Shown piece by piece: positions 9,871 through 40,914 of a stretch of DNA of 64,000 nucleotides; position 1 is the first letter of the stretch, and each line of letters starts with the position of its first letter. The translations under genes and the position numbers were made by a program. The notes beneath the pieces were generated by a model. That model was not told where the DNA came from. It saw nothing but the letters and a program-made list of their open reading frames with translations, and did no database searches. The stretch covers positions 186,001 through 250,000 of the forward strand of contig NZ_JAODIW010000005.1 of NCBI RefSeq assembly GCF_026586625.1. The letters run 5' to 3'. Origin of the DNA: Halobium salinum. Lineage in GTDB: Archaea > Halobacteriota > Halobacteria > Halobacteriales > Haloferacaceae.

Positions 9871-9885
9871 GACGGACCGGGGCGC

Positions 9886-10647
9886 TCAGGCCAGCTCGTC
9901 CAGCCCGACGAGGTCGATGCTGTGTTCGTCGGCACGCTCGTGGATAGTCTCCAGCAGTTCGACCGCGTTCGGCCCGTCACCGTGGATACAGATGCTCTCT
10001 GCGGGTACGTCGATGACCTCGCCGTTCACCGCCTCCACCTCGCCCTCGGTGGCGATGGAGACGAAGCGGTCGGCGACGAGGTCGGGGTCCTTCGGTTCGA
10101 CCTGTTTCTCGACGATGAGGCTCCGGTCGGGGTTGTAGTCGAGGTCGACGTACCCCTCGAAGACGGCACGGAGGTCGTCGAACTCCTCGGCCACCTCGTA
10201 GATGTTCATGTCCGTCGCCAGGTAGACGAGTTCGGGGTCCACCTCGAGGACGGACTCCATGACGGCGCGGGCGTGGTCTGCGCTTTCGGAGAGCATCGAG
10301 TACATTGCGCCGTGGGGCTTGACGTGCTGGACCTCCAGGTCGTGACGGGCGGCGAACCCCATAAGCGCGCCCAACTGGTAGACGACGTAGTCCCGTACCT
10401 CCTCGGGCGTCGCGTCCATCGTCCGACGACCGAACCCCATCTTGTCCGGCAGTCCGGGGTGGATACCGACGCCGACGCCGTGCTCGGTCGCGAGTTCGAC
10501 CGTCTCGCGCATCACGTGGGGGTCGCCCGCGTGGAAACCGCCCGCGACGTTCGCGGAGGTGATGTACGGCATCACCTCGTCGTCGCGACCCATCTTCCAG
10601 TTGCCGAAGCTCTCGCCCATGTCGCAGTTGATGTCGATTTCGACCAT
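9886..10647 (-). CDS. pxpA: PxpA, LamB/YcsF-family 5-oxoprolinase subunit A
   Basis: A 253-residue LamB/YcsF-family protein, the metal-dependent hydrolytic subunit A of the PxpABC 5-oxoprolinase in bacteria. The family hallmarks are intact: INCDMGESFGNWKMG at 5-19, NVAGGFHAGDP, GIHPGLPDKMGFGRR, and HVKPHGAMYSML, which hold the conserved Asp/His/Lys residues. The start at 10647 lies 28 nt after a TATA box, so it is leaderless. It is the third piece of a PxpABC set although transcribed separately, and it shares a divergent promoter region with the class III aminotransferase gene. The natural ring substrate may be 5-oxoproline or another lactam or imide. Confidence 0.9.
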   Translation of the reverse strand: MVEIDINCDMGESFGNWKMGRDDEVMPYITSANVAGGFHAGDPHVMRETVELATEHGVGVGIHPGLPDKMGFGRRTMDATPEEVRDYVVYQLGALMGFAARHDLEVQHVKPHGAMYSMLSESADHARAVMESVLEVDPELVYLATDMNIYEVAEEFDDLRAVFEGYVDLDYNPDRSLIVEKQVEPKDPDLVADRFVSIATEGEVEAVNGEVIDVPAESICIHGDGPNAVELLETIHERADEHSIDLVGLDELA

Positions 10648-10671
10648 GCCACACACTCCCATCGAACCGGA

Positions 10672-10679
10672 GATATAGC
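10672..10679 (-). promoter_or_regulatory. TATA box for pxpA
   Basis: The minus-strand GCTATATC is centred 28 nt before the ATG at 10647. Confidence 0.55.
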
Positions 10680-10749
10680 TTGTGACCGAGGCCGTCCCGT
10701 CGCCGATTTCGCCGACGGCTCTCACGGCAACCACGATACGGTGTGCCAA

Positions 10750-10757
10750 ACTATATG
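10750..10757 (+). promoter_or_regulatory. TATA box for aminotransferase 1
   Basis: ACTATATG is centred 27-28 nt before the ATG at 10781. This selects that start over more upstream in-frame codons. Confidence 0.55.
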
Positions 10758-10780
10758 CCCCGGCTCCGCCGAGTAGTCTC

Positions 10781-12196
10781 ATGAGCGCGGGCCCACCCAT
10801 CGAAGAGCTACACATAGCCGACGCACCGCAGATGAAAACCGACGTCCCCGGGCCGCGGTCGACGGAACTCATCGACCGGCAGCAGGAACTCGACAGCGCC
10901 GCGGTCGCCTACCCGAAGCGGGTTCCCATCGCGCTCGACGAGGCACGAGGGGCGACCGTCCGCGACGTGGACGGCAACGTGTTCCTCGACTTCTTCGCCG
11001 GCATCGGCGTGTTGAACGTCGGGCACTCGAACCCCTACGTCGTCGAGGCCGTCAACGACCAGACGGAGAAGTTGGTCCACACCATCGACTTCCCGACCGA
11101 GGCGCGGCTGGACTTCATCGAGGCGATGGACGGCATCGCACCTGACGGGCTCAGCGGCGAGAGCAAGATGGTGTTCGGCGGCCCCAGCGGCAGCGACGCT
11201 ATCGAGGGCTCCATCAAGCTCGCGAAACACTACACCGGCCGCCACGGGATGCTCGCCTTCGAGGGGTCGTACCACGGTGGCACCGCCGGCGCGCTGAGCC
11301 TCACGGGCGGCCGCAAGTACAAGGCGGGCTACGAACCGCTCCTGCCCGACGTGGTCCACGCGCCGTACCCCTACCGCATCGAAGAGCGAGGGAGCGACGC
11401 CGACGCGACGGCCGTCTGTCCGGCAGCGGACTGCTGTGGCGACCTCTCCTGTGCCCGGGCGCTCGACCGCGTGCAGTCCGTTCTGGAGGACCCCTACGGC
11501 GGGAAGCAGACCCCCGCGGCCATCTGGGTCGAACCCATCCAGGGGGAGGGCGGCGTCGTCGTCCCGCCGAAGGGATTCCTGCGGGGGCTGCGCGACCTCG
11601 CCGACGACAACGACGTGATGCTCATCTTCGACGAGATTCAGTCCGGCTTCGGCCGCACCGGGGAATGGTTCGCCTCCGAGTGGGACGGCGTCACCCCCGA
11701 CGCGATGACGCTCGCGAAGGGTATCGGCGGCGCCGGCGTCCCGCTCGGTGCGATGCTGTACCACGAGAAGTTCGACACGTGGGGGCCCGGTGGCCACATC
11801 GGCACGTTCCGCGGCAACGTCCCGGCGATGCGCGGCGGCATCCGGGCCATCGAGTACATCCGGGAACACGACCTGCTCGCCCACGCCCGCGACCTCGGCG
11901 AGTACATCCGCGACCGTCTCCGCGAGGCCGCGGACGCCAACCCGGAACTCGTCGACGTTCGTGGCCGCGGCCTCTTCATCGGCGCCGAGTTCCGCGACGA
12001 GTCCGGGACGCCTCGCAAGAGCGCGGTGAAGGCGGTCCAGCAGTACTGCTACGAGCGCGGCGTGCTCGTCTGGTCCGCCGGTCGCCACGGCAACGTCCTC
12101 CGCCTGCTGCCGCCGCTCGTGATGACACACGCCCAGGCCGAAACCGGCCTCGACGTCGTCGTCGAGGCCATCGAGGCGCACGCGCCCGACGCGTGA
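10781..12196 (+). CDS. Class III PLP aminotransferase 1
   Basis: A 471-residue fold-type I aminotransferase (omega/gamma-amino group, e.g. beta-alanine, 4-aminobutyrate or diaminobutyrate). Visible are the cofactor phosphate loop GPSGSDA (134-140), the aromatic SYHGGTAG (163-170), IFDEIQSGFGRTGEW with D284, and the Schiff-base lysine K313 in TLAKGIGGAG. An unusual insert at 205-228 carries four cysteines (C213, C218, C219, C224) and could bind a metal or form disulfides. With PxpA divergent and the semialdehyde dehydrogenase convergent, it probably deaminates an omega-amino acid formed by ring opening. The exact amino donor cannot be told. Confidence 0.88.
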   Translation: MSAGPPIEELHIADAPQMKTDVPGPRSTELIDRQQELDSAAVAYPKRVPIALDEARGATVRDVDGNVFLDFFAGIGVLNVGHSNPYVVEAVNDQTEKLVHTIDFPTEARLDFIEAMDGIAPDGLSGESKMVFGGPSGSDAIEGSIKLAKHYTGRHGMLAFEGSYHGGTAGALSLTGGRKYKAGYEPLLPDVVHAPYPYRIEERGSDADATAVCPAADCCGDLSCARALDRVQSVLEDPYGGKQTPAAIWVEPIQGEGGVVVPPKGFLRGLRDLADDNDVMLIFDEIQSGFGRTGEWFASEWDGVTPDAMTLAKGIGGAGVPLGAMLYHEKFDTWGPGGHIGTFRGNVPAMRGGIRAIEYIREHDLLAHARDLGEYIRDRLREAADANPELVDVRGRGLFIGAEFRDESGTPRKSAVKAVQQYCYERGVLVWSAGRHGNVLRLLPPLVMTHAQAETGLDVVVEAIEAHAPDA

Positions 12197-17636: not shown

Positions 17637-17690
17637 GATACTCGGGGAACGGCTCGCGGCCGACGGTCGCGACGGTCCCGTGGTCCGTGT

Positions 17691-17702
17691 GAACACTTTT
17701 GT
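17691..17702 (+). promoter_or_regulatory. GAACACTTTTGT promoter element (copy 1)
   Basis: A BRE/TATA-like element centred 27-28 nt before the ATG at 17725. The same 12 bases at the same spacing precede the SDR gene at 34255. Confidence 0.5.
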
Positions 17703-17724
17703 ACTGGCACGGGGTGGCACAGGT

Positions 17725-19104
17725 ATGGCGGTAGACCTGCGAATCAGCGGCGGGACAGTCGTGACGGCGACGGACAGCTTCGAGGCGGACGTGGCGGTCG
17801 ACGACGGGCGAATCGTCGCCGTCGGCGACGCCGGGTCGGTTCCGGACGCCGAGGAGACGGTCGACGCGTCCGGCTTGCTCGTGATGCCGGGGATGATAGA
17901 TCCCCACGTCCACATCGAGGACCACTTCTCGGTCGACACCTACGAGACGGGCACCGGCGCCGCCGCCCTCGGCGGCATCACCACCTACATCGACTTCGCC
18001 TGGCAGGCGTGGGTCGGCGAGCTGAGCCAGTACGAGGAGGAGGGCACCCTCCTCGAGGGTATCGAGGAGAAGCGGGAGAAAGGGGAGCGGGCCGTCGTCG
18101 ACTACAGCGTCCACGGCGCCATCACCCGCGAGGACCCCGACGTACTGGAGGAACTCGCCGACGTAGTCGACGCCGGCGTCACCTCCTTCAAGATGTTCAC
18201 GGCCTACGAAATCGGTCTCGGCAACGGGTTCATGAACCGCGTGCTCGAGCGCATCGCCGACCTCGACGCCGTCGGCGTCTTCCACACGGAGGACCCCTCC
18301 GTCTGTGACGAACTCACCGACCAGTTCAAACGGGAGGGAAAGGGCGACCCCGAGTGGTACCCGCAGTCCCGCCCGGACTACGCCGAAGCGATGGCCGCCG
18401 AGGACGCCGTCAGGATGGCACGGGAGGCCGGCGCGAAGTACTACGGTATCCACACCAGCTGTCGGAAGTCCGCCGACGTGCTCGAGTCGTTCCGGGAGGA
18501 CGGCTCGAAGGTGCGCGCCGAGACCTGCACCCACTACCTCGCGCTCGACGACTCGATATACGGCGAGGTGGGGAACCAGGCGATGATCGCCCCACCCATC
18601 CGCAAACCCGACGACAACGAGGCCATGTTCGAACACCTCCGGCGGGGGAGCCTCGACGTGGTGTCGACCGACCACTGCGGCTACATGCTCGAGGGCAAGC
18701 AGGTGGACAACTGGTGGGAGAGCACCTTCGGCGCGAACTCCCTGCAGGTGAGTCTCCCGGTCGTCCACGACGAGGCCGTCAACAAGCGCGGCTTCTCCTA
18801 TCCGTGGCTCGTCCGGGTCATGAGCACGAACGTGGCACAGACGTTCGGCCTGCCCGGGAAGGGGACCCTCGACCCCGGTACGGACGCCGACATCGTCCTC
18901 TTCGACCCCGGAGAGACGTACACTATCACGGCCGCGGACAACGCCTCCGCCGCCGACTTCTCCATCTACGAGGGCCGGGAGGTCACCGGTCGAGTCAAGC
19001 GGACGTTCGTCCGCGGGGAACTCGTCGCCGACGACGGCGACGTGGTCGGCGAGCCGGGTCACGGACAGTTCGTCGAGCGCGACCTGCCGGACTGGGAGGT
19101 CTAA
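17725..19104 (+). CDS. Dihydropyrimidinase/hydantoinase/allantoinase-like amidohydrolase
   Basis: A 459-residue cyclic amidohydrolase of the urease-related superfamily. It shows the metal motif DPHVH (60-63), the carboxylatable lysine K156 in TSFKMF, H187 in FHTED, a histidine in GIHTSC, and the catalytic aspartate in STDHC. The small beta-sandwich is formed by both ends (RISGGTVV; RVKRTFVRGELV). These proteins open dihydrouracil, hydantoin or allantoin rings to N-carbamoyl acids. Substrate class cannot be separated by eye; the nearby aminotransferases and mmsA favour dihydropyrimidines. It is followed after 97 bp by the chaperonin-like gene on the same strand. Confidence 0.88.
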   Translation: MAVDLRISGGTVVTATDSFEADVAVDDGRIVAVGDAGSVPDAEETVDASGLLVMPGMIDPHVHIEDHFSVDTYETGTGAAALGGITTYIDFAWQAWVGELSQYEEEGTLLEGIEEKREKGERAVVDYSVHGAITREDPDVLEELADVVDAGVTSFKMFTAYEIGLGNGFMNRVLERIADLDAVGVFHTEDPSVCDELTDQFKREGKGDPEWYPQSRPDYAEAMAAEDAVRMAREAGAKYYGIHTSCRKSADVLESFREDGSKVRAETCTHYLALDDSIYGEVGNQAMIAPPIRKPDDNEAMFEHLRRGSLDVVSTDHCGYMLEGKQVDNWWESTFGANSLQVSLPVVHDEAVNKRGFSYPWLVRVMSTNVAQTFGLPGKGTLDPGTDADIVLFDPGETYTITAADNASAADFSIYEGREVTGRVKRTFVRGELVADDGDVVGEPGHGQFVERDLPDWEV

Positions 19105-19201: not shown

Positions 19202-20959
19202 ATGAGTGCCCAACGAGAGGCGAGTGGGGAACCGGAACCGCAGCCGCAGTTCCCCCACGCCAACATCGTCGCGGTCCGAGCGATGGCCGACGTACTGGAG
19301 TCGACGCTCGGTCCCGTCTCCCACGACAAACTGGTCGTCCACCGGCTCGAAAGCCGGACCGAGACCGGGAACCCGGGCGTCCCCGCAACCGACGAGTACA
19401 CCGTCACGGGCGACGGCGCGACGCTCCTCGAGGAACTCCCCGTCCAGCACCCCGTCGCGCCGATCGTCCGGCGCATCCTCGGCCCCGAGCGGCCCGGCGA
19501 CACCGACGTCGAGGGCGAGGATATCCCCGACGGCGTGACGAGCGCCGTCGTCCTCTGTGCGAACCTCCTCGACGAGGCCGAGTCGCTGCTGGCGGACGGC
19601 GTCCACTCCCACGACGTGCGAGGGGGGTACGCCCTCGCACTCGACGCCGCACTCGCGGCGCTCGACGGGGAGAGCCGCGCCATCGACTCGTTCGCCGCCG
19701 ACGCGAGAATCGAGCGCGCCCTCGCTCGGACCGCGATGACCGGCAACGACGTCGGAGGACTGGCCGACCGCTGGGCTACCCTCGCCGTCGAGGCGGTCGA
19801 CGCCGTCGGCCGGCCGACCGCGGCGACGTTCGCGGTGCGGGCCCTCGGCGCCGGGTCGCTCGCGGACTCCCACCTCGTTCGCGGCGCCGCCCTCGACCGC
19901 AACGGCCGGGCGAACCGCGAGATGCCGAAGCGCGTCGAGGACGCCACCGTGCTCCTGCTGGACGGACACACCACGGGGGGCCTGCAGGACCCCGAGTGGG
20001 ACGAGGACGCGACGCTTTCGGTCACCGCCCCCGGGGACATCGACGGGGTGCGAGACCTCTACGCCGCGAAGCGCGAGGAGGTGGTCGAACACTACGTCGA
20101 CCTCGGCGTCGACGTGGTCGTCACTCGGCTGGGAATCAACGCGGGGTACCAGCGCCTGCTCGCCGACGCCGGTATCCTCGGCGTGCGCGGGGTGAGCCCC
20201 CTCGAGATGAAGCAGGTCGCGCTCGCGACGGGGGCGAGTCTCGTCCACAACCCCGCGGACGTGGAGGCGTCCGACCTCGGTCACGCCGGAGTCGTCGAGG
20301 AGCGACGTATCGACCCGCGCCGCGGTCGGCGGGCGAGCCGCCGGATGACGGTGTTCGACGACTGCCCCGACCCCCGGTCGGTGACGGCCGTCCTCCACGG
20401 CGTCACCGGACAGGTCGCCGAGCAGGCCTCGACCGAGGTCCGCAAGGCGGCCGCGGCGGTCGCGACCGCCCGCGGCGTGGGTGCGTCCCGCCCCGGCGTG
20501 GTTCCGGGCGCCGGTGCCACCGAACTCCGGCTCGCGGCCGCAGTTCGCGAGTCGGCGACGGGCGTCGACTCGAAGGCACAACTCGCTGCGCTCGCGTTCG
20601 CCGACGCGCTCGAGAGCGTCGTGGCGTCACTCGTGCGAAACAGCGGCGGCGACCCGCTCGACGTCGTCGCCGACCTCAGGGCAGCCGACCACGCGGGCGA
20701 GGGGCCCGCGGGCTACCTGCTCCCCGGGCGGATCGTCGGCGACCCCGTTGCGGCCGGGGTCGTCGGTCCGGCCGCCTACACTCGGCGGGCGCTCGTCGCC
20801 GCCGTCGAGGTCGCAGACCTCCTCCTCCGCGTCGACGACGCTATCGACGCCACCTTCACCGAGGAGCCGGCGGGCCCGGACGACGTCATCTACGACGAAC
20901 GCGCCGAGAACCACATGGACCACCTGGAGAAGAACCCGGGGACGCGCTGGGACCGGTAG
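19202..20959 (+). CDS. Divergent thermosome/CCT-family chaperonin paralogue
   Basis: A 585-residue group II chaperonin-like protein. Aligning features are NIVAVRAMADVLESTLGP (21-38), the nucleotide loop TVTGDGATLLEELPVQHP (67-84), the equatorial signature as EDIPDGVTSAVVL (107-119; the canonical GDGTT keeps only its Asp and one Thr), SPLEMKQVALATGA, DLGHAGVVEERRI, MTVFDDCPDPRSVT and GVVPGAGATELRLA (canonical GGGAVE). It lacks the Gly/Met-rich tail of normal thermosome subunits. The weakened ATPase motifs suggest slow or absent ATP turnover, or a non-classical role. It stands between two hydrolase genes of the catabolic region, far from any housekeeping setting. Family membership is clear; function is open. 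Confidence 0.82.
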   Translation: MSAQREASGEPEPQPQFPHANIVAVRAMADVLESTLGPVSHDKLVVHRLESRTETGNPGVPATDEYTVTGDGATLLEELPVQHPVAPIVRRILGPERPGDTDVEGEDIPDGVTSAVVLCANLLDEAESLLADGVHSHDVRGGYALALDAALAALDGESRAIDSFAADARIERALARTAMTGNDVGGLADRWATLAVEAVDAVGRPTAATFAVRALGAGSLADSHLVRGAALDRNGRANREMPKRVEDATVLLLDGHTTGGLQDPEWDEDATLSVTAPGDIDGVRDLYAAKREEVVEHYVDLGVDVVVTRLGINAGYQRLLADAGILGVRGVSPLEMKQVALATGASLVHNPADVEASDLGHAGVVEERRIDPRRGRRASRRMTVFDDCPDPRSVTAVLHGVTGQVAEQASTEVRKAAAAVATARGVGASRPGVVPGAGATELRLAAAVRESATGVDSKAQLAALAFADALESVVASLVRNSGGDPLDVVADLRAADHAGEGPAGYLLPGRIVGDPVAAGVVGPAAYTRRALVAAVEVADLLLRVDDAIDATFTEEPAGPDDVIYDERAENHMDHLEKNPGTRWDR

Positions 20960-21079: not shown

Positions 21080-21919
21080 ATGGCAAAAGCTACCGTCTGT
21101 CTGACGTACGACTTCGACGCCGTATCGACCTGGCTGTGGTCCTACGACTCGTGGGACGAACCGACCCGACACTCCCGTGGGGTGTTCGGGGCGGAAGTGG
21201 GCGCACCGCGCCTCCTCGACCTCCACGACAAGTACGACGTGCCGGCGACCTGGTTCATCCCGGGCCACACCATCGACAGTTTCCCGGAGATCAGCGGGGA
21301 AGTGTGGGACCGTGGGTACGATATCCAGCACCACGGCTGGAGCCACACCGGTCCGGCCACCTTCGAGTCAGAGGAGGACGAACGCGCCGACGTCGAGCGC
21401 GCCCTCGACTGTATCGTCGACCTCACCGGCCGGAAGCCTACGGGCTACCGTTCGCCGGCGTGGGACTTCTCCGCGCACACCCTCGACATCCTGGAGGACA
21501 TCGGCATCGAGTGGGACTCGAGCAAGATGGCCTCGGACTTCCACCCGCACTGGGCCTACGGCGGGTGGAGCGCCCCGGAGGACGACGCGTACGACCGCGG
21601 TGAACCGACCGACATCGTCGAACTTCCCGTCTCCTGGCAGCGCGACGACTGGCCGGCCTTCACGTTCACGTGGGCACGCCCGCACCGGATGGGGTACGTC
21701 AGCGAGGACTCCATCTTCCAGCGCTGGTACGACCAGTTCGACTGGATGTACGAGAACGTCGACGGCGGCACGTTCATCCTCACGATGCACCCGCAGGTCA
21801 TCGGGCAGGCCCACCGGCTCATGCGGCTGGAAGCGCTCATCCAGCACATGCAGACGAAGCCGGACGTCGAGTTCAAGCTGATGGACGAGGTGGCGAGCGA
21901 CTTCCGCGAGAACAACTGA
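21080..21919 (+). CDS. Polysaccharide-deacetylase-fold hydrolase (PuuE/PgdA-like)
   Basis: A 279-residue NodB-fold hydrolase. The metal site is visible as TYDFDA (9-14) and the His pair region IQHHGWSHTGP (75-85); RSPAWDFS follows. The overall pattern, including the long C-terminal part with EDSIFQRWYDQFDWMYE and FILTMHPQVIGQ, is that of the PuuE-type allantoinase and HpPgdA subgroup rather than chitin deacetylases. PuuE is a metal-free allantoinase and some close relatives act on cyclic imides. Its place between chaperonin-like and PrpD-like genes in a ring-hydrolase cluster suggests an amide or imide substrate. There is no signal peptide, so it acts in the cytoplasm. Confidence 0.82.
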   Translation: MAKATVCLTYDFDAVSTWLWSYDSWDEPTRHSRGVFGAEVGAPRLLDLHDKYDVPATWFIPGHTIDSFPEISGEVWDRGYDIQHHGWSHTGPATFESEEDERADVERALDCIVDLTGRKPTGYRSPAWDFSAHTLDILEDIGIEWDSSKMASDFHPHWAYGGWSAPEDDAYDRGEPTDIVELPVSWQRDDWPAFTFTWARPHRMGYVSEDSIFQRWYDQFDWMYENVDGGTFILTMHPQVIGQAHRLMRLEALIQHMQTKPDVEFKLMDEVASDFRENN

Positions 21920-23430: not shown

Positions 23431-25239
23431 TCAGTCCCCGCGCAGCGTCGCCGTCGCCGCCTCGTCCATCTCGCCGTCCTCGATGACGACGCCGTAGGAC
23501 TCCCTCGCCGCCTCGGCGGAGACGAGGCCGTCGAGGTAGTCCTCGTACACCTGCTCCGCCGGCCGGTCGTGTGGGTCGCCGTAGCCGCCGCCGCTGGCAG
23601 TCTTGATGAGCACGCGGTCCTCGGCGCCGAACTTGTACCCCGACTCCTTCGAGTTGAGGTCGACGGTCTCCCCGTCGGCGGTGATGTGCTTCAGGTCGCC
23701 GTGGGTCCCCTCCTCGCCGCCGAACAGGCCGTGGGGCCGGTAGGTGTTCCCGTCGCCCTCCATCGTCATCACGGCGTCCGTGAGGAACCGGGACTCGCGG
23801 ACGATGCCGTGGCCGCCGCGGTGTCTCCCGGCGCCGTGACCGTCCTCGCGGAGGTGGTAGCGCTCGACGCGCATCGGATGGGAGAGTTCGATGTCCTCGA
23901 CGGGCCGGTTCTTGGTGTTGTGGACGAGCGCGTCCACGGCGTCGAGACCGTCGGCCTCGGGACGCCCGCCGTAGGAGCCCTCGTTCACCTCGAGGTACAC
24001 CCAGTACTCGCCCCTGTCGTCGGTGCCGCCGTAGCTGACGAAGTACACCTGCCCGCAGGTGCCGGCGCACACCCGGTCGGGGAGCACGTCGGCGAGCGCC
24101 TCGATGATGAGGTCGCTCATCTTGTCCACTTGGTTGATGCGGGCGAATGCCGAGGTGGGCGGCGTCGGGTTGAACATACAGCCCGGTCGGGCCTTCGGGT
24201 GGACCGGCGCGAACGTTCCGGAGTTCTGTGGCAGGTAGTCGTCGCGCACCGCCGTGTCCATCAGGATGGAGCGGATGGTGAAGTAGATACAGACGTCAGT
24301 CGAGCCGTGGAACGGGATGTTGTACCCGGTCGGCGTCTGGTCGGCCGACTCGCTCATGTCGACGGTGATGTCGCTACCCTCGACGGTGACCTCCGCCGCG
24401 ATTTTCAGGCGCTGGCCCCGGTTGCGGCCGTCGTCGTCGAGGTAGTCCTCGGCGTAGTACGTCCCGTCCGGAATCTGCTCGATTTCGGCGCGAAGCAGCG
24501 CCTCGGCGTAGTCCATCAGCGCCTCCCCGGCCTGCTGGATGCGCTCGAGACCGTACTTGTCGACGAGCGCGAGGTAGCGCTCCTCGCCGACGTGACAGGA
24601 GGAGATCTGCGCCTGCAGGTCGCCGATGACCTCTCGTGGGGTACGGACGTTGTCCTCGATGAAGTTCCAGATTTCGTCGACGCGCTCGCCGCCGTCGTAC
24701 ACCTTCGTCGACCGGAACAGGCTCCCCTCGGCGTACATGTCCTCCAGGTCGATGGCCAGCCCGGGCGTCGCCGAGCCGATGTCGAGGTGGTGGGCCGTGT
24801 TCGCCGCCCACGCGATGTGCTCGCCCTCGTAGAATATCGGGACCGCGACCGCGATGTCGGGGGAGTGACTCGCCCCGTAGTGCGGGTGGTTGTGGATGAA
24901 CACGTCACCCTCCTGAATCGCGTCCTCCCGGCTGACCCCGCGCTCCTCGAAGGTGTCGTACATCCCCTGCAGGTAGCCGATGAGCGAGCCGACGTGCATC
25001 GGCGTGGAGTCGCTCTCACAGAGTTCGCGGCAGTCGGTGGTGAAGATGCCCGCGCCCATGTCCTCGCTCTCCCGGATGATGGAGGAGTACGAGGAGCGGA
25101 TGAGCTTGTACCCCATTTCCTGGGCGATGGTGTCCAGTTCGCCGCCGATGACCTGCATGGTCACCGGGTCGATGTCCCGGTCCGCCACGGCCGCCGCGGC
25201 GCTCGCGCTGCTCGTCTCCTCCTGGCTGTCTCGTGTCAT
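23431..25239 (-). CDS. hyuB: HyuB-type hydantoinase/oxoprolinase beta subunit (copy 1)
   Basis: A 602-residue HyuB (hydantoinase B/oxoprolinase C-terminal half) protein, partner of HyuA. Together these form ATP-dependent N-methylhydantoinase or oxoprolinase-type ring-opening enzymes. It begins DIDPVTMQVIGGELDTIAQE after a 20-residue Ser/Ala leader and holds GDVFIHNHPHYGASHSPDI, HHLDIGSATPG, GHGAGRHRGGHGIVRESRF, and the glycine-rich end TASGGGYGDP. The frame is open further upstream, but the ATG at 25239 overlaps the hyuA stop (TGATG), giving coupled translation. Substrate is not predictable from sequence; PrpD downstream sets it apart from copy 2. Confidence 0.92.
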   Translation of the reverse strand: MTRDSQEETSSASAAAAVADRDIDPVTMQVIGGELDTIAQEMGYKLIRSSYSSIIRESEDMGAGIFTTDCRELCESDSTPMHVGSLIGYLQGMYDTFEERGVSREDAIQEGDVFIHNHPHYGASHSPDIAVAVPIFYEGEHIAWAANTAHHLDIGSATPGLAIDLEDMYAEGSLFRSTKVYDGGERVDEIWNFIEDNVRTPREVIGDLQAQISSCHVGEERYLALVDKYGLERIQQAGEALMDYAEALLRAEIEQIPDGTYYAEDYLDDDGRNRGQRLKIAAEVTVEGSDITVDMSESADQTPTGYNIPFHGSTDVCIYFTIRSILMDTAVRDDYLPQNSGTFAPVHPKARPGCMFNPTPPTSAFARINQVDKMSDLIIEALADVLPDRVCAGTCGQVYFVSYGGTDDRGEYWVYLEVNEGSYGGRPEADGLDAVDALVHNTKNRPVEDIELSHPMRVERYHLREDGHGAGRHRGGHGIVRESRFLTDAVMTMEGDGNTYRPHGLFGGEEGTHGDLKHITADGETVDLNSKESGYKFGAEDRVLIKTASGGGYGDPHDRPAEQVYEDYLDGLVSAEAARESYGVVIEDGEMDEAATATLRGD

Positions 25240-27332
25240 CAGTCGTCCCTCCGGAGTTCGACCGCACCGTTTCCGAGCACCGTCGCCGTCCACCCCGGGT
25301 TGACGACGACCGTACTGTCGAGTTCGTCGACGATGGCCGGCCCCTCGACGACGTTGCCGTACTGCAGCTTCTCGCGGTCGTATCGCGGCACCGTCCGCTC
25401 CTCGGGCGCCGCGCTCGTGCCGAACAACACCGCCGACTCGGTCGTCCTCGCGGCCGATGGGTCGTCGCCGCCCTCCTCGAGAACCGGCGGGTCGTACGAC
25501 TGGATGTCGCCGACGGCCGTCACCCGCAGGTTGAGCAACTCGACCGGGTCGTTCTCGAAGAAGTGGCCGTACTCGGCCTCGTGTTTCTCCTCGAAGCGCT
25601 CGCGGGTCCGGGCGTGCCAGTCCCCGTCGGTGCCGTCGAAGTCGACGTTCAGTTCGTACCCTTGGCCCTCGTAGAGGCAATCGATGGACGTCCGGAACGA
25701 CCACTTCGACTCGTCCACGTCGTCGCGGGCGAGTTGCGCTCGCCCCTTCGCCTCCAGCCGGTCGAACGTCTCGTCGATGTACTCGCCCGCGACCGATTCG
25801 AGGCGTTTGCTCACCGTCTGTTGGTAGTCATACTTGACGTTCCCCGTCAGAAGGCCCCGCGCCGAGGCGATACCGGGGGACGGCGGAATCAGCACGGTGC
25901 CGACGTCCAACTGTTCGGCGATGCCGGCGGCGTGCATCGGGCCGGCGCCGCCGAAGGCGACGATGGTGTACTCGCGCGGGTCGTACCCTCGCTGGACCGT
26001 CTGCTCGCGGATGGCGCGGTACATGTTCATGTTCGCGACCTCCAACGTGGCGAGCGCGGCGTGGTCCGGGGTCTCGAAGCGCGCCTGGTCGACTCGGTCA
26101 CAGAGCTGTGTCTGGATGGCCTCCCGCGCGGCGTCGGCGTCGAGGTCGAGTGCGCCCCCGAGGAACGCGCCCGGGTCGATGCGCCCGAGCGTCACCTGCG
26201 CGTCGGTCGTCGTCGGCTGGTCGTTGCCGCGGCCGTAGCAGACCGGTCCCGGCTCCGCGCCGGCGCTCTTCGGGCCGACGTTGAACCCCATCGCACGGTC
26301 GAACCAGGCGATGGAGCCGCCGCCGGCGCCGATGGTCTCGATGTCGAGCATCGGGACGATGGCGGGGTACCCCCCGACCGTGCTGTCCCGCGGGTCGCGT
26401 TCGAGGACGCGACCCGGGACGACGGAGATGTCCGCGCTCGTCCCGCCCATGTCGAGCATGATGAGGTTCGGCTTCCCGGCCTGTCGGCCCTCGAACTCGG
26501 CGGAGAGGACCCCGGCCGCCGGTCCGGAGACCAGCGTCGTCACCGGGCGTTCGGCGACGGTGTCGACGCTCGACATCCCGCCGTTGGACTGCATGATGAG
26601 CACCTCCGCGTCGAACCCCTCGTCCGCGAGGCGGTCCTCCAGTCGGTTCAGGTACGTCGACATCACGGGCTCGAGGCGAGCGTTGATGGCGGCCGTCGTG
26701 AACCGCTCGAACTCGCGGAACTGCGACACCACCTCGTGTGACGTCGACACCGACACGTCCGGGAACTCGGCCTCGATGATTTCGCGCGTACGGGCCTCGT
26801 GGTCCGGATTCAGGTAGGAGTGAAGGTAACAGACGGCGACCGACTCGACCCCGTCGTCGACCAACTCCCGTATCGCCTCGCGTACCTCGTCCTCGTCGAG
26901 TGGGGCAACCACCTCGCCCGGCGGCTGGATTCGCTCGGTCACCTCCTTTCGGTGGCGGCGTTCGACGATGGGGTTCTCCTGCCACGGGATGGTCTGTTGG
27001 AGCGAGAAGCTGTGGGGCTTGCGGTGGCGCCCGATGTGGAGGATGTCGCGGAACCCGCGCGTCGTGAGCATCCCCGTCTTCGCACCCTCGTGTTCGATGA
27101 GCGCGTTCGTCGCCACGGTCGTCCCGTGGAACACCTGGTCGACCTCGCCGGGGTCGAGTTCGGCGAGTTTCGTCACCTCCACGATGCCCGACACCGTCGA
27201 CTCCGACGGGTCGGCCGTCGACGGCGTCTTGTAGATGTACTCCTCCTCGTCCGTGACCAGCGTCACGTCGGTGTTCGTCCCGCCGACGTCGACGCCGATT
27301 CGGACACCGGCGGTAATGCTACTGCTGCCCAT
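25239..27332 (-). CDS. hyuA: HyuA-type hydantoinase/oxoprolinase alpha subunit (copy 1)
   Basis: A 697-residue HyuA protein, the ATP-binding ASKHA-fold subunit that phosphorylates or activates the ring amide. Motifs include the phosphate loop RIGVDVGGTNTDVTL near the N-terminus, FHGTTVATNALIEHEGAKTG, LMIMQSNGG-type segment VLIMQSNGGMSSV, LDMGGTSADISV and IGAGGGSIAWFD. The ATG at 27332 is preferred to a GTG 21 nt upstream because it gives the usual short N-terminus. It is the first gene of the hyuA-hyuB-prpD operon; in the second pair of this window the order is reversed. Confidence 0.93.
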   Translation of the reverse strand: MGSSSITAGVRIGVDVGGTNTDVTLVTDEEEYIYKTPSTADPSESTVSGIVEVTKLAELDPGEVDQVFHGTTVATNALIEHEGAKTGMLTTRGFRDILHIGRHRKPHSFSLQQTIPWQENPIVERRHRKEVTERIQPPGEVVAPLDEDEVREAIRELVDDGVESVAVCYLHSYLNPDHEARTREIIEAEFPDVSVSTSHEVVSQFREFERFTTAAINARLEPVMSTYLNRLEDRLADEGFDAEVLIMQSNGGMSSVDTVAERPVTTLVSGPAAGVLSAEFEGRQAGKPNLIMLDMGGTSADISVVPGRVLERDPRDSTVGGYPAIVPMLDIETIGAGGGSIAWFDRAMGFNVGPKSAGAEPGPVCYGRGNDQPTTTDAQVTLGRIDPGAFLGGALDLDADAAREAIQTQLCDRVDQARFETPDHAALATLEVANMNMYRAIREQTVQRGYDPREYTIVAFGGAGPMHAAGIAEQLDVGTVLIPPSPGIASARGLLTGNVKYDYQQTVSKRLESVAGEYIDETFDRLEAKGRAQLARDDVDESKWSFRTSIDCLYEGQGYELNVDFDGTDGDWHARTRERFEEKHEAEYGHFFENDPVELLNLRVTAVGDIQSYDPPVLEEGGDDPSAARTTESAVLFGTSAAPEERTVPRYDREKLQYGNVVEGPAIVDELDSTVVVNPGWTATVLGNGAVELRRDD

Positions 27333-27483
27333 ATCTATGCGTACACATCCCACACGTCGGCTTAGTCGTTTCCCTCAGGGCCAATCGCCGGTCGTGGCCC
27401 TCCACCGCGGTCGAAGCCCGACGTTTCGGCGCGCTCGGCGGGAGAGTTATGTACCCGTTCGGTGTCACGGACGGTGAGACGCG

Positions 27484-28659: not shown

Positions 28660-29808
28660 ATGGGTACGGTAAGCAGAGCGGATACTGCGATCTCCGTCAC
28701 GTCTCTCGAGAAATCGTTCTCGAACGAACAGGTGCTCAGGGGCGTCGACTTCGACGTCGCCCCTTCGGAGTTCTGTGTCGTGGTGGGACCGAGCGGCAGC
28801 GGGAAATCGACGCTGCTGAAGTGTATCGCGGGTCTCGTCCCGTTCGACGCCGGGAGCATCCACCTCGACGGTCGAGCCGTCGACGAGGTGGACGTCGAGG
28901 ACCGCGAACTGGGGTACGTGTTCCAGGACTTCGAGGAGCGGCTGTTCCCGCACATGAGCGTCGCGGAGAACGTCGCCTTCGGACTGCGCCAGCGCGAGAA
29001 CCCCCCTTCGGCGAGCGAGGTCGACGCGCGAATCGACGAGATGCTCGACCTCCTCTCCATCCCCGAGACCCGGGACAACACCCCGTCGGAGCTGAGTGGG
29101 GGCCAGCAACAGCGGGTCGAACTCGCCCGTCAGCTCATCAGGGAGTGTGACGTGATGCTCCTCGACGACCCGCTGGCCGACCTCGACTACAAGCTCCAGA
29201 AACGCATGGAGTTGGAGATGCGCCGTATCCACGACGACCTAGGGAGCACGTTCGTCTACGTCACGCACAACCAGGACCAGGCGCTGAAGCTGGCGGACAA
29301 GCTGGTGGTCGTCAACCAGGGGATGATCGAACAGATCGGCACGCCCGAGGAGGTGTACGCCGAGCCGGAGACCGCGTTCGTCGGGCGCTTCATCGGCGAC
29401 ACGAACCCGCTGCTGGGCGACGTGGTCCGAACCGAGGGATCGAACGTCGTCGTCGACACCCCCGTCGGCGAGATTCACGCGGCTCCCCGGGAGAACACCC
29501 CCGAGGTCGGCACGGAGGTCATCGTCCTGGTTCGGCCAGAGGACCTCACACTCGGTGCGGACGCCACGGGCTGTGACAACCGCTTCTCGGTCTCCGTGGA
29601 GGACCGCACGTACACCGGTGAACTGACGGAGTTCACCGTCTCGCTCGGCGACGACGTTGAGGAGTTCCAGGTCGTCCGTGACGGGAACGTCCCCCGGGAG
29701 GCGGTCGGGAAGCGAACGACCATCGGCTGGGACGCCGACGAGGGCGTTGCCTACGACACGCTCAGCGTCGTCGACACCGTGACCGTCGAGGACCTCATGG
29801 AGGTGTGA
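28660..29808 (+). CDS. ABC importer ATPase 1 (PotA/MalK type), degenerate catalytic Glu
   Basis: A 382-residue importer ATPase with a C-terminal TOBE domain. Walker A is GPSGSGKST (43-51), the Q-loop is in YVFQDF, the signature is intact LSGGQ (145-149), and the switch His is in YVTHNQDQ. In Walker B the catalytic Glu of the usual LLDEP is Asp: LLDDPL with D170. The leaderless start at 28660 follows a TATA box (CATTAAAG) by 27 nt. The next gene, 2 nt downstream, is a second ATPase with a changed signature motif, so the two probably form a heterodimer serving the permeases at 35081 and 39997 and the binding protein at 38536. Confidence 0.92.
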   Translation: MGTVSRADTAISVTSLEKSFSNEQVLRGVDFDVAPSEFCVVVGPSGSGKSTLLKCIAGLVPFDAGSIHLDGRAVDEVDVEDRELGYVFQDFEERLFPHMSVAENVAFGLRQRENPPSASEVDARIDEMLDLLSIPETRDNTPSELSGGQQQRVELARQLIRECDVMLLDDPLADLDYKLQKRMELEMRRIHDDLGSTFVYVTHNQDQALKLADKLVVVNQGMIEQIGTPEEVYAEPETAFVGRFIGDTNPLLGDVVRTEGSNVVVDTPVGEIHAAPRENTPEVGTEVIVLVRPEDLTLGADATGCDNRFSVSVEDRTYTGELTEFTVSLGDDVEEFQVVRDGNVPREAVGKRTTIGWDADEGVAYDTLSVVDTVTVEDLMEV

Positions 29809-29810
29809 CG

Positions 29811-31052
29811 ATGGCGAAATCTGCACGCGGCGGCGACCCCGGGGGCGACAGCCACGCAGGCGGCGCGAACGAGGGACGCGACGACGTCCTCCGAGTGGAG
29901 GGGCTGACGAAAATCTACCCCGACGGGACGCTCGCGGTCGACGATATCGACTTCAGCATCCGCCGAGGTGACTTCTGTGTCATCATCGGCCCCTCCGGCT
30001 GTGGGAAGTCGACCACCCTACACTCCCTGGTCGGGAAAATCGCCCCGACGGAGGGGGCAGTTGTCCTCGACGACGAGGACATCACGGGTACCCCCACCTA
30101 CCAGCGCGACATCGGGCTCGTCTTCCAGGACTTCCAGCTCTTTCCCCACCTCAGCGTGGAGGAGAACATCACCTACGGGCTCGAACGGACGAATGTTCCC
30201 GTCGACGTGGTCGACGAACGGCTCGAGAACGTCCTCGAGATGATGCAGCTCCACGAACTGCGCGGCCGGTCGCCGAAGGCGCTCTCGGCGGGACAGAAAC
30301 AGCGCGTCGCGCTCGCCCGCAGCCTCGTCCTCGAACCCAAACTCCTGCTGCTCGACGAGCCGCTCGGCGACATGGACTACAAGCTCCAGAAGCGCATGGA
30401 GCGCGAGCTACTGCGCATCCACCGCGAACTGGACACGACGTTCGTCTACGTCACCCACGACCAGACGCAGGCGATGCGGCTGGCCGACCAGATCGTCGTG
30501 ATGAACGGCGGGAAGGTCGAACACTCCGGGCCGGTCGACGAGGTGTACGACCGCCCGCGGACGGCGTTCACCGCCGCCTTCGTCGGCGACTCCAACCTCT
30601 TCGACGGCGAACTCGTCGCCGTCGCCGACGACGGGGAGACCGCGACGGTCCGTGCCGACCTCGGCGAGTTCACGGCGAGTACGGCCAACCTCGACTCGGA
30701 TCCGGAGGCGCTCGTCGGCGAGCGCGTCCTCTTTGCCGTCCGCCCGCAGCATCTCGAACTCGTCGGCGAGGCCGGTGGAGCCGGCGACGGGCGCGAGAAC
30801 GGCGGCGTCTCGAACGTCGTCGACTGCGCCGTCGAGGACGTCATCTACCAGTCGGGGAAGGGGACGCAGGTCATCCTCTCGGCGGAGACCGAAGCGGGCG
30901 GGACCGAGGAACTCCAACTGCACTCCGAGGAGAAACTCGTCGTCGACGCCGAGCGCGTACAGGTCGGCTGGACGCCCGAGCACACCCTCCTCTTCGAGCG
31001 CCCGAGCGTCCTCCCGGACATCGACCTCCGGGCGGACATCCTCGGGAAGTAG
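29811..31052 (+). CDS. ABC importer ATPase 2 (PotA/MalK type), altered signature motif
   Basis: A 413-residue importer ATPase with an acidic N-terminal extension of about 24 residues and a C-terminal TOBE region. Walker A is GPSGCGKST (60-68), Walker B has the normal LLDEPL, and the switch His is in YVTHDQTQ. The signature is LSAGQ (158-162, A160 in place of the second position Gly) instead of LSGGQ. It overlaps no gene; its ATG is 2 nt after the stop of ATPase 1. Together the two changes fall in the same predicted nucleotide site of a heterodimer (see findings). Confidence 0.92.
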   Translation: MAKSARGGDPGGDSHAGGANEGRDDVLRVEGLTKIYPDGTLAVDDIDFSIRRGDFCVIIGPSGCGKSTTLHSLVGKIAPTEGAVVLDDEDITGTPTYQRDIGLVFQDFQLFPHLSVEENITYGLERTNVPVDVVDERLENVLEMMQLHELRGRSPKALSAGQKQRVALARSLVLEPKLLLLDEPLGDMDYKLQKRMERELLRIHRELDTTFVYVTHDQTQAMRLADQIVVMNGGKVEHSGPVDEVYDRPRTAFTAAFVGDSNLFDGELVAVADDGETATVRADLGEFTASTANLDSDPEALVGERVLFAVRPQHLELVGEAGGAGDGRENGGVSNVVDCAVEDVIYQSGKGTQVILSAETEAGGTEELQLHSEEKLVVDAERVQVGWTPEHTLLFERPSVLPDIDLRADILGK

Positions 31053-35080: not shown

Positions 35081-35929
35081 ATGGCAACGAAGACCGCGCG
35101 TACCGGCGAGGTTTCCGACAGTTCGGGGGTGGCTTCGCTCTTCGAACGTATCGACATGAAGCATCTGCTGCTGGTGTACACCGCGCTCATCGCCGCGTAC
35201 ATCTACCTGCCCATCCTCTCGGTCATCGGCTTCTCGTTCAACTCCGGCGGGCTGACGTTCCCGTTCGTCGAGTTCACGACCCAGTGGTACTCGGCGCTGC
35301 TGGCGAACGACGCGATGATGTCGGCGGTGTACCGCTCGCTCCAGCTCGCGGTCGTCGTGATGCTCATCACGACCGTGCTGGGTACGGCTGCCGCGCTCGC
35401 GTACCGGTACGAGTTTTGGGGGCAGCGTGGGCTGCTGTTCCTGCTCATCCTCGGCATCATCACGCCGGGCATCACCTACGGTGTCGGCGCCACGCTGTTC
35501 CTCAACGAACTGCTCGGGTTGAGCAAGGGGCTCTGGCTCGCGGTGCCCGTCCACGTTGTCTGGACGCTCCCCTTCGCCGTCATCGTCCTGCTCGCCGGGT
35601 TCCCGCCGAACCTCGCCGAGAACGAGGAGGCCGCCCGCGTGATGGGGGCGAACAAGCTCACCGTCTTCAGACAGATAATCCTGCCCCAAATCGCGCCGAC
35701 GGTGCTGGGCGCGGCGGTGTTCGCGTTCACCCTCTCCTACAACGAGGCGACGCGCAGTCTCCTCCTGCTCGGCAACAACAACACGATGCCCCTCGAAGTG
35801 TTCTCCATCGCCTCCGCGACCCGGGCCACGCCAGTGCTGTTCGCGCTCGGTAGCGTCACCACGGTCGCCTCCACGCTCCTGTTGGGGCTGGCCGGCTTCC
35901 TCGTGTTCTACGGCTCGCGCGGTCGCTGA
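35081..35929 (+). CDS. ABC importer permease (PotC-like)
   Basis: A 282-residue permease with about six membrane segments (27-50, 85-108, 113-135, 143-170, 200-230 and 247-278 roughly). The cytoplasmic coupling loop EEAARVMGANKLTVFRQIIL is a standard EAA motif for contact with the ATPase. It resembles PotC and other type I importer permeases for polyamines, sulfate or iron. It is the second permease of the importer whose other parts are at 28660, 29811, 38536 and 39997. Confidence 0.9.
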   Translation: MATKTARTGEVSDSSGVASLFERIDMKHLLLVYTALIAAYIYLPILSVIGFSFNSGGLTFPFVEFTTQWYSALLANDAMMSAVYRSLQLAVVVMLITTVLGTAAALAYRYEFWGQRGLLFLLILGIITPGITYGVGATLFLNELLGLSKGLWLAVPVHVVWTLPFAVIVLLAGFPPNLAENEEAARVMGANKLTVFRQIILPQIAPTVLGAAVFAFTLSYNEATRSLLLLGNNNTMPLEVFSIASATRATPVLFALGSVTTVASTLLLGLAGFLVFYGSRGR

Positions 35930-38535: not shown

Positions 38536-39948
38536 ATGGGTAACGGTATCAGTAGGCGCAACTTCATGGCGAGTACCGGTGCAGCCGCTGGCGCGGCTGG
38601 GCTCGCCGGATGTACCGGTGGAAACGGCGGCGATGGAAACGGGAGCGGTGGCGGTGGCGGTAATGGGAGCGACGGTGGCGGCGGTGGCGGCGGCGGCACC
38701 TCCGACGGCTCCCGCCCGATGAAGTGGATGGGGCCGGCGTGGGCCGTCCGCGACGGCCAGAAGGAGAAGTTCACCGAGATGACCGGCATCCAGATGGAGA
38801 CGACGAACGCCGACATCCCTACCACACAACAGAAACTGCTGAGCGGCGACCGGGAGACGTTCGACGCGTTCTCCATCGACACCTCCGGCTCCGGGGCGAT
38901 GACGAAGGACAACGACGCCAGCCTCCCGGTGCCGAAGGACGCACTCGACAAGTGGGACGAGAGCAAAATCACGGAGCTGTTCACGAACCCCGGAGAACGC
39001 GTCGACTACCTGGGTGCACAGACCGACACCATCCTCTCCGAACTGTGGGCCGACGAGGACCGGACCCAACTCCGGTTCCCCCCGCACGTGTACAACTTCG
39101 ACGCCATCGGGCTCAACCCGAAGATGGTCGACGAGAGCTCCGTCTCGAAGTGGAGCGCGCTGTTCGACGAGCAGTACAAGGGGCGGGTGGCGATGGGCGC
39201 CGTCTCGGCCATCACCATCCCCGAGGCGCTAATGCATCTGATGGACAACGACATGATGGACGGGTCGGTCGGCGACCTGAACGACCCGTCGGAGGACCAA
39301 CTCGACACGGCGGTCGACTTCCTCATCAAGCAGAAGCAGGGCGGCCAGTTCCGCTCGACCTGGGTCGCGTACGGTAACTCGGTCAACCTGATGTCCAGCG
39401 AGGAGGCGGTCATCGGCGACATCTGGCAGCCGGCCTGCCTCGACGTCCGCCGCGCCGGAACGCCCTGCACTTACGCGACGATGAGCGACGGGGTCCAGGG
39501 GTACCGCTACTGGTTCGGCGGAATCGCCCCGGTCGCCCCCGGCGCAGAGAGCCGCGGCAACGTCGACGAGGTGCACACGCTCATCAACGACGTTCACTAC
39601 GGCGCGTGGTTCCCCGGCTACATCCAGGGTTGGGGCTACTCCGTCCCGCACTACCCGAACAAGGAGCTCGTCCGCGACGGGTCCGACGACTCCGGTGAGG
39701 GCATGGGGCCGGAGTACTACGACTGGGCGTACGAAGGGAAGGCGACGTACCAGGCGGTCGACGACCCCGGCCTGTTCGACCCCCAGCAGTACGAGTGGTC
39801 GATGGAGGAGGGCAGCCCCGCTTCCGACGGCCAGAAACGCAACAGCGGCCCGGTCGAGGACCGCATCGACCGCATCGGCTTCTTCCAGAAGTGGCCCTCG
39901 AACGCCGACTACATGCTCGAGCGCTGGAAGGAGTTCACGAGCGCGTAA
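38536..39948 (+). CDS. ABC importer substrate-binding lipoprotein (PotD/PBP2-like)
   Basis: A 470-residue Tat-exported lipoprotein. SRRNFMAS (6-13) is the twin-arginine motif and LAGC with C26 is the lipobox; a Gly/Ser/Asn-rich linker runs to about residue 57. The mature part (from KWMGPAWAVRDGQK) is a type II periplasmic binding fold of the polyamine/spermidine group, including a hinge region with WQPACLDVRRAGTP and aromatic patches. The ligand is not evident. It is followed after 48 bp by a permease gene and supplies the importer with the ATPases at 28660 and 29811. Confidence 0.9.
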   Translation: MGNGISRRNFMASTGAAAGAAGLAGCTGGNGGDGNGSGGGGGNGSDGGGGGGGGTSDGSRPMKWMGPAWAVRDGQKEKFTEMTGIQMETTNADIPTTQQKLLSGDRETFDAFSIDTSGSGAMTKDNDASLPVPKDALDKWDESKITELFTNPGERVDYLGAQTDTILSELWADEDRTQLRFPPHVYNFDAIGLNPKMVDESSVSKWSALFDEQYKGRVAMGAVSAITIPEALMHLMDNDMMDGSVGDLNDPSEDQLDTAVDFLIKQKQGGQFRSTWVAYGNSVNLMSSEEAVIGDIWQPACLDVRRAGTPCTYATMSDGVQGYRYWFGGIAPVAPGAESRGNVDEVHTLINDVHYGAWFPGYIQGWGYSVPHYPNKELVRDGSDDSGEGMGPEYYDWAYEGKATYQAVDDPGLFDPQQYEWSMEEGSPASDGQKRNSGPVEDRIDRIGFFQKWPSNADYMLERWKEFTSA

Positions 39949-39996
39949 CTCCGGGAACCGGCTTTTTACCAACAGATGCCTGATAGTCACAGTCAC

Positions 39997-40914
39997 ATGG
40001 CGAGTCAAGAGACGAACGACGGTACGGTACAGCAGGGCGGAGCGCCGCTCGCGGAGCGGGTCAAACGCGCGAGCTTCGGCGAGGTCCAGGCGCTGGTCGG
40101 TCCGACGGTCGCCTGGTTCGCGCTGTTCCTCATTGCGCCGCTGCTGGTCATCCTCTACTACAGCTTCCTGACCTACACGAGCTTCAGCGTCGAACACACG
40201 CTCACGCTCTCGGCGTGGGAGTCGGTGTTCGAGCCGACCATCTACGACGTGTTCCTGCGGTCGCTGGTCATCGGCGTCGCGGTCACCGCCGTGACGCTGC
40301 TGTTCGGCTACCCCCTCGCGTACTACCTGCGGTTCTACACCAGCCAGAACGGCGGCATCCTGCTGCTGCTGTTTCTGGTCATCCCGTTCTGGACCTCGGC
40401 GGTCGTCCGGACCATCGGCTGGTACCCCATCCTCGGGCGCACCGGGGTGGTGAACAAGCTGCTGGTGTCGTGGGGGCTGGTGGAGGCGCCGCTCGGGTGG
40501 CTCCTGTTCTCGCCGTTCTCCCAGATCGTGGGCTATCTCGCGGCGTACGTGGTGTTCATGGCCGCGCCCATCTACATCTCGCTGTCGCAGATCGACGAGG
40601 ACTTGCTCGACGCCTCGGAGACGCTCCGGGGCAACCCCGTGGAGACGTTCCGCTACGTGACGCTCCCGCTGTCGATGCCCGGCGTCGTCATCGGCGTCAT
40701 CTTCGTGTTCGTCCTCTCCATCGGGGACTTCACCGTCCCGCAGTTCCTCAGCGGCGGTGAAGGGACCATCACGACGCTCATCTACCTCTCGGTGAACAAC
40801 GGACTCAACTACCCCGACGCGGCCGCGCTCTCCATCGCGCTGCTCGTCGTCATCTTCGCCATCGTCTACGTGTTGACGCGCTTCGTCGACATCAGCCAAA
40901 TCGCGAAGAGTTAG
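39997..40914 (+). CDS. ABC importer permease (PotB-like)
   Basis: A 305-residue permease with a cytoplasmic N-terminal tail of about 35 residues and about six membrane segments. The EAA-type loop is DLLDASETLRGNPVETFRYV. An in-frame ATG exists at 39976, but the promoter-like CTTTTTAC at 39962-39969 lies 10 nt before that codon, whereas it is about 31 nt before 39997, so the later start is preferred. Confidence 0.9.
   Translation: MASQETNDGTVQQGGAPLAERVKRASFGEVQALVGPTVAWFALFLIAPLLVILYYSFLTYTSFSVEHTLTLSAWESVFEPTIYDVFLRSLVIGVAVTAVTLLFGYPLAYYLRFYTSQNGGILLLLFLVIPFWTSAVVRTIGWYPILGRTGVVNKLLVSWGLVEAPLGWLLFSPFSQIVGYLAAYVVFMAAPIYISLSQIDEDLLDASETLRGNPVETFRYVTLPLSMPGVVIGVIFVFVLSIGDFTVPQFLSGGEGTITTLIYLSVNNGLNYPDAAALSIALLVVIFAIVYVLTRFVDISQIAKS

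Follow-up and report, generated by a model that had tools for sequence, protein, structure and literature searches.

Archaeal chaperonins are usually regarded as general folding machines. In the window, the whole 64,000-nucleotide stretch of Halobium salinum DNA analyzed here, a gene of this superfamily lies within a catabolic island, which raises the question of the partner that it serves there. The original prediction had described a group II chaperonin with the motifs PDGVT and GAGATE and without a Gly/Met tail, flanked by a dihydropyrimidinase-like and a deacetylase-like gene; all of these features were recovered in a 585-amino-acid ORF with an ATG start, named CPN3 in the following, and in its two neighbors (Table 1). 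The enzymes encoded around CPN3 comprise 5-oxoprolinase-type subunits, a biotin carboxylase, two class III aminotransferases, a methylmalonate-semialdehyde-type dehydrogenase, and an amidase, together with the hydantoinase, the deacetylase, MmgE/PrpD, HyuA/HyuB, a carbamoylase-type M20 hydrolase, a luciferase-like monooxygenase, and an isochorismatase. A five-gene ABC importer is encoded in the same surroundings. By its predicted functions, this gene set suggests the uptake and breakdown of a cyclic amide. A second HyuA-like gene is located just past an importer permease gene (window positions 41159-43207, minus strand), and its product is 39% identical to HyuA (25239-27353). Twenty islands containing CPN3, each approximately 46-64 kb in length, were compared.

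Table 1. Coordinates of CPN3, its sequence features, and associated genes (window positions unless a locus is given)
Feature	Position	Strand	Evidence and occurrence
Hydantoinase/dihydropyrimidinase-like amidohydrolase, variable companion	17680..19104	+	TIGR02033, 351/393 bits; orthologue in 9/20 islands
CPN3, divergent group II chaperonin, 585 aa	19202..20959	+	Pfam Cpn60_TCP1, 315 bits; orthologues in 19/391 class genomes; AlphaFold2 model and PDB fold match
Stem-loop insertion, ~14 residues (approximate limits), unconserved	19340..19390	+	Alignments; conservation 0.43; pLDDT < 50 at residues 44-70
D71 codon (Mm-Cpn D60), kept	19412..19414	+	D in 20/20 CPN3 and 39/39 canonical
8-residue insertion ahead of the nucleotide loop (within ERPGDTDVEG; approximate limits)	19490..19513	+	Alignment; in all CPN3
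PDGVT loop (canonical GDGTT)	19526..19540	+	Asp (D91) kept in 20/20; T93 to V/I in 20/20
N182 codon at the nucleotide-sensing Lys (Mm-Cpn K161)	19745..19747	+	Asn in 20/20
R414-K415 codons at residue 385 and catalytic D386	20441..20446	+	R in 20/20; K in 17 and Q in 3 of 20; D in 39/39 canonical
Conserved family-specific C-terminal tail (IYDxxAExH...TRWD), replaces Gly/Met tail	20858..20956	+	Alignment
Polysaccharide deacetylase/PuuE-like, variable companion	21080..21919	+	PF01522; 13/20 islands
HyuB and HyuA, hydantoinase/oxoprolinase-type pair, frequent companion	23431..27353	-	HyuA in 17/20, HyuB in 11/20 islands; HyuA PF01968 and PF05378
Importer ATPase, PotA1-like	28660..29808	+	19/20 islands; NCBIfam PotA-type, under equivalog cut-off
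Importer ATPase, PotA2-like	29805..31052	+	Orthologue in 19/20 islands
Importer permease PermB	35081..35929	+	PF00528; 20/20 islands at >= 45%
Importer solute-binding protein (SBP), Tat-type lipoprotein (RRNF...GC)	38536..39948	+	Same 19/391 genomes and same 8 plasmid records as CPN3
Importer permease PermC	39976..40914	+	PF00528; 19/20 islands at >= 45%, 20/20 at >= 40%
CPN1/CPN2 convergent pair, contig C10	L007:7472-9325 and 9378-10994	+ and -	Adjoins sugar ABC importer

Family assignment and distribution of CPN3

CPN3 matched the Pfam family Cpn60_TCP1 over its full length (residues 29-550, 315.4 bits, E-value 8.5e-94, gathering score 34.3). The scores remained below the NCBIfam equivalog cut-offs for the thermosome subunits alpha (301.7 against 450 bits) and beta (281.2 against 400 bits), and the GroEL models yielded 37-55 bits, far under their cut-offs, which sets CPN3 apart from the group I (GroEL-like) chaperonins. 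Six TCP1 genes are present in the genome, three canonical and three divergent (CPN1, CPN2, and CPN3); the divergent ones are all located on the 428-kb contig that includes the window. The structure prediction proposed together with the original prediction was carried out: an AlphaFold2 model based on a 22-row alignment reached a mean pLDDT of 79 and a pTM of 0.77, with low confidence in the stem-loop insertion (residues 44-70), a second insertion (residues 97-106), and most of the tail. The PDB structures closest to this model were group II chaperonins (TM-scores of 0.65-0.76 by query length). The modeled protein has the equatorial, intermediate, and apical fold with a built-in lid, the segment of which could be aligned, and both the apical domain and the lid helix are present in the sequence as well.

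Two phylogenetic trees were calculated, a quick one from 99 proteins and a more careful one, under a mixture model, from 29; neither contained eukaryotic CCTs. In both, CPN1, CPN2, and CPN3 each formed a fully supported clade and the canonical subunits a clade of their own; the mixture-model tree supported the CPN3 clade with 100/100 and the canonical clade without CPN3 with 96/89. A housekeeping thermosome paralogue is rejected by this placement. CPN2 grouped with CPN3 (support 87 and 92/90), which may be due to long-branch attraction, and the 17 rows of the three divergent families were joined with a support of 88/75.

Orthologues of CPN3 (E <= 1e-75) were detected in 19 of 391 sampled genomes of the class, which belong to nine genera, and in one more genome of the family (G192). 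Among the carriers are Halobellus limi, Natronorubrum bangense, Haloarcula litorea, and species of Halarchaeum and Haladaptatus. A scan of genome contigs with the CPN3 protein alone gave a match only in Halarchaeum nitratireducens, and the CPN3-bearing replicons in a plasmid collection were 115-621 kb in size. Between related CPN3 pairs, dN/dS was 0.10-0.25, and the gene is thus under purifying selection. These values, the orthologues, and the fold match of the model exclude a chance ORF. CPN3 belongs to the group II chaperonin superfamily but is distinct from the canonical thermosome subunits, since the catalytic residues (see below), the equivalog scores, and the clade membership all keep it out of the canonical class.

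Linkage of CPN3 to an ABC importer

The constant companion of CPN3 is the ABC importer and not the hydantoinase. The original prediction had sought the partner among the large hydrolases and had called for a look at conservation beside hydantoinases; however, the hydantoinase orthologue was found in only 9 and the deacetylase in 13 of the 20 islands, whereas the importer was present in all of them. On a plasmid of Haloarcula litorea, CPN3 (44%) is encoded together with all five importer genes (55%-65%), and none of the island's hydrolases was found in the 26 kb examined around them. The hydantoinase was consequently rejected as a constant partner. Neither of the two refuting outcomes named in the original prediction was observed: CPN3 did not fall among the housekeeping thermosomes, and no placement at random loci was found in related genomes. 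The proposal of a divergent and dedicated paralogue is thus supported.

The orthologue of the SBP was identified in 19 of the 20 islands at a level of at least 45% and in all 20 at a level of at least 40%. Using a threshold of E <= 1e-100 for the SBP, the sets of haloarchaeal genomes with SBP and with CPN3 were identical (19 of 391). An independent collection of 72,556 plasmids gave the same picture: both were found in the same eight haloarchaeal records, and the next SBP match, from rhizobia, shared approximately 30% identity. By chance alone, such identical genome sets would arise with a probability of about 1e-32, a figure that takes no account of shared ancestry and therefore overstates the significance. 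CPN3 strictly co-occurs with this importer subfamily in the sampled genomes. While the co-occurrence can reflect transfer of the island as one unit, a joint transfer of unrelated neighbors is an insufficient account because of the spread over nine genera and the case of Haloarcula litorea.

The immediate neighbor of CPN3 is a permease gene in 13 of the 20 islands; in nine of these, CPN3 is located between the genes of PermB and PermC, in the orientation opposite to both. In islands of the type found in the window, CPN3 is approximately 8-20 kb away from the importer genes. The evolutionary distances of CPN3 correlated with those of the importer genes with r values of 0.53-0.73, compared with 0.88-0.96 for the importer genes among one another, and CPN3 diverged about 1.25-1.7 times faster than these genes. 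No importer component was singled out in this mirror-tree comparison, in which PermB performed best (r 0.73).

All 22 SBPs examined carry a lipoprotein-type twin-arginine signal (RR motif). Because a Tat substrate should fold before export, the SBP would be a natural client of CPN3. A homologous island on a plasmid of Rhizobium sp. WL3 contains the importer, 5-oxoprolinase-type subunits, a biotin carboxylase, short-chain dehydrogenases, a polysaccharide deacetylase, and an amidase. Its SBP has a similar Tat-type signal, and no chaperonin was found in the 19 kb examined. The idea that Tat export is a sufficient reason for a linked chaperonin is weakened by this homologue, and for the same reason a role for the permeases or in the assembly of the complex is equally plausible.

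Active site and family-specific segments

Residues were numbered according to Mm-Cpn by alignment to PDB 5w74, which is a D386A variant. The counts refer to 20 aligned rows of CPN3, two of which represent the same Halarchaeum protein, and to 39 canonical haloarchaeal rows. D60, D91, D386, and K161 were each found in 39 of the 39 canonical sequences. The altered nucleotide motifs emphasized in the original prediction are both real, but they are not the telling changes: the Asp of PDGVT is the metal-binding D91, which is kept in all 20 rows, and the GAG of GAGATE occurs in only four of them. Judged by the alignment, the changes that are consistent across the family are instead those at D386 (K/Q), residue 385 (R), K161 (N), and T93 (V/I). 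Three further CPN3 members encoded on plasmids show the same active-site residues. K161 is the gamma-phosphate sensor of Mm-Cpn. As read from these substitutions, CPN3 has lost the activator of the hydrolytic water, while the other two active-site Asps (D60 and D91) remain. The D386A variant of Mm-Cpn binds ATP and is incapable of hydrolyzing it (PMC5019054). CPN3 should correspondingly bind ATP without hydrolysis, and with the hydrolysis residue gone, a passive role without ATP cycling gains in likelihood.

A Gly/Met-rich C-terminal tail was present in none of the 20 CPN3 rows compared with 36 of the 39 canonical ones; both CPN3 and CPN1 have a conserved tail of their own instead. With the canonical thermosomes (Mm-Cpn, the T. 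acidophilum thermosome, and haloarchaeal Cct), CPN3 thus shares the three-domain fold with lid helix, the Cpn60_TCP1 family, and D60 and D91, and it differs from them at D386 (K/Q), K161 (N), and T93 (V/I), in the absent Gly/Met tail, in two insertions and a conserved new tail, in its separate clade, and in the strict importer linkage.

Possible roles of CPN3

We favor, with confidence evenly balanced against doubt, the reading that CPN3 is an accessory pseudo-ATPase group II subunit for the biogenesis or assembly of one ABC importer, which feeds a catabolic island for nitrogen heterocycles or hydantoin-type compounds; the chaperone role and the client are what we infer from the linkage. This importer consists of the SBP, two permeases, and two ATPases. 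CPN3 would bind ATP without turnover and might act as a holding or assembly platform for an importer component, either on its own or as part of canonical thermosome rings. The likeliest client would be the Tat-exported SBP or a permease. In favor of this reading are, besides the linkage, the active site, and the low dN/dS, the equally strict coupling of the CPN1/CPN2 pair to a sugar importer and the dedicated bacterial GroEL-like proteins (see below). Against it count the lower distance correlations of CPN3, its separation from the importer genes in islands of the window's type, the rhizobial island with a Tat-type SBP and no adjacent chaperonin, and the possible transfer of the island as one unit.

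The main rival to this reading would be a CPN3 that is a passive subunit or adapter in canonical Cct rings and redirects ordinary thermosomes to the client of the island, with no need for hydrolysis of its own. The cap-like subunit of normal thermosomes raised in the original prediction may describe CPN3. The loss of hydrolysis and sensing residues alongside the retained D60 and D91 would suit such a subunit, as would the three canonical subunits encoded in the same genome and the segment LLLRVDDAIDA, an equatorial helix and strand near the C-terminus that is conserved in CPN3. A precedent is provided by the vertebrate proteins BBS6, BBS10, and BBS12, divergent relatives of group II chaperonins, some with degenerate hydrolysis motifs, that work with CCT on one client complex (PMC5534436). 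CPN3 resembles them as a divergent group II protein with a degenerate ATP-hydrolysis motif; however, the BBS proteins are eukaryotic and derived from CCT8, whereas CPN3 is archaeal, has its own set of losses, and has a client that is only proposed. The stem-loop expected to touch the neighboring subunit contains the variable insertion of approximately 14 residues, which argues against mixed rings, and we regard this alternative as unlikely, if worth serious attention.

A folding or assembly factor for the catabolic enzymes (the hydantoinase or HyuA/HyuB) appears less probable still. The position of CPN3 between the hydantoinase and deacetylase genes in 6 of the 20 islands and the frequency of HyuA (Table 1) are in line with this role, and so is the bacterial MmoG type. 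MmoG and its mycobacterial relative MimG (PMC7994243) as well as a GroEL-like protein linked to gbu (PMC10653785) are dedicated to catabolic systems and needed for their function, which shows that such a module may rely on a chaperonin reserved for it. Like them, CPN3 is a chaperonin paralogue encoded and strictly co-inherited with one functional module, but those proteins belong to group I and serve enzymes, whereas CPN3 belongs to group II, is probably non-hydrolyzing, and is tied to a transporter. The patchy occurrence of the hydantoinase and the enzyme-free locus of Haloarcula litorea speak against an enzyme factor.

It is quite improbable that CPN3 is no longer a chaperone and has become a structural or regulatory part of transport, such as an ATP-sensing scaffold or a static cage: the retained nucleotide-binding residues, the lost hydrolysis residues, and the conserved family-specific tail could be explained in this way, but the apical domain and lid helix are still there, and no membrane or ligand-binding feature was found in CPN3. 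Hardly any credence can be given to a decaying paralogue hitchhiking with the island, which would explain the faster divergence and one frameshifted orthologue, because the low dN/dS and the open frames of every other orthologue examined reject a pseudogene. The frameshifted orthologue (genome G026, locus L039, G026:C1:2023000-2042999) lies in an island in which the aminotransferase, hydantoinase, PotA1, M20, and PermC genes are also split, so that assembly indels are the likelier cause.

If the importer reading is true, a chaperonin-client pair would be defined in a tractable domain of life, with a prokaryotic counterpart of the BBS proteins and a natural test of what an ATP-binding, non-cycling chaperonin can do. 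The open-access literature that was searched yielded no description of thermosome paralogues linked to importers.

CPN1, CPN2, and other accessory chaperonins

The genes of CPN1 and CPN2 are arranged tail-to-tail in a sugar-transport island approximately 110 kb from CPN3, and the two share an identical set of 19 genomes among the 391. As a rule, the pair is convergent and adjoins genes in the order SBP-Perm1-Perm2-ATPase. Among 60 relatives, the sugar SBP was found in the same six that carry the full CPN1/CPN2 pair, and in the plasmid collection it shared the same six records with them. CPN2 has lost D60 (S in 20/20) and D386 (19/20); in CPN1, D60 and D91 are kept in 18/18 and D386 in 17/18, counts that leave out row L138, which is actually a CPN2 sequence. 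As with CPN3, the proteins are divergent members of group II strictly tied to one SBP, and CPN2 likewise is devoid of the catalytic Asp. In contrast to CPN3, there are two subunits encoded as a convergent pair, the catalytic residues of CPN1 are intact, the importer is unrelated, and the clades are separate.

Two unrelated importers are each accompanied by their own chaperonin family. Our confidence falls just short of even for the wider proposal that divergent group II chaperonins were repeatedly enlisted by haloarchaea and became obligate components of single ABC importer modules, involving at least two unrelated importers, in each of whose chaperonin families one subunit has lost the ATP-hydrolysis residue. 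If true, these would be archaeal chaperonins with one assigned client system, and a chaperonin would serve transporter biogenesis.

A further group of accessory chaperonins adjoins the formamidase gene fmdA in six haloarchaea, among them Natronomonas pharaonis PL131 and Haloarcula marismortui pNG700 (loci L095:8687-10372, L098:9136-10647, L223:7953-9599, L224:7932-9548, L232:3923-5620, and L233:3923-5626). Most of these proteins share a C-terminal motif similar to GYPWAxGH. On a plasmid of Halorussus vallis (NZ_CP100002.1, L231:3920-5539), a near-canonical thermosome gene is located inside a co-directional run of ABC permease and ATPase genes.
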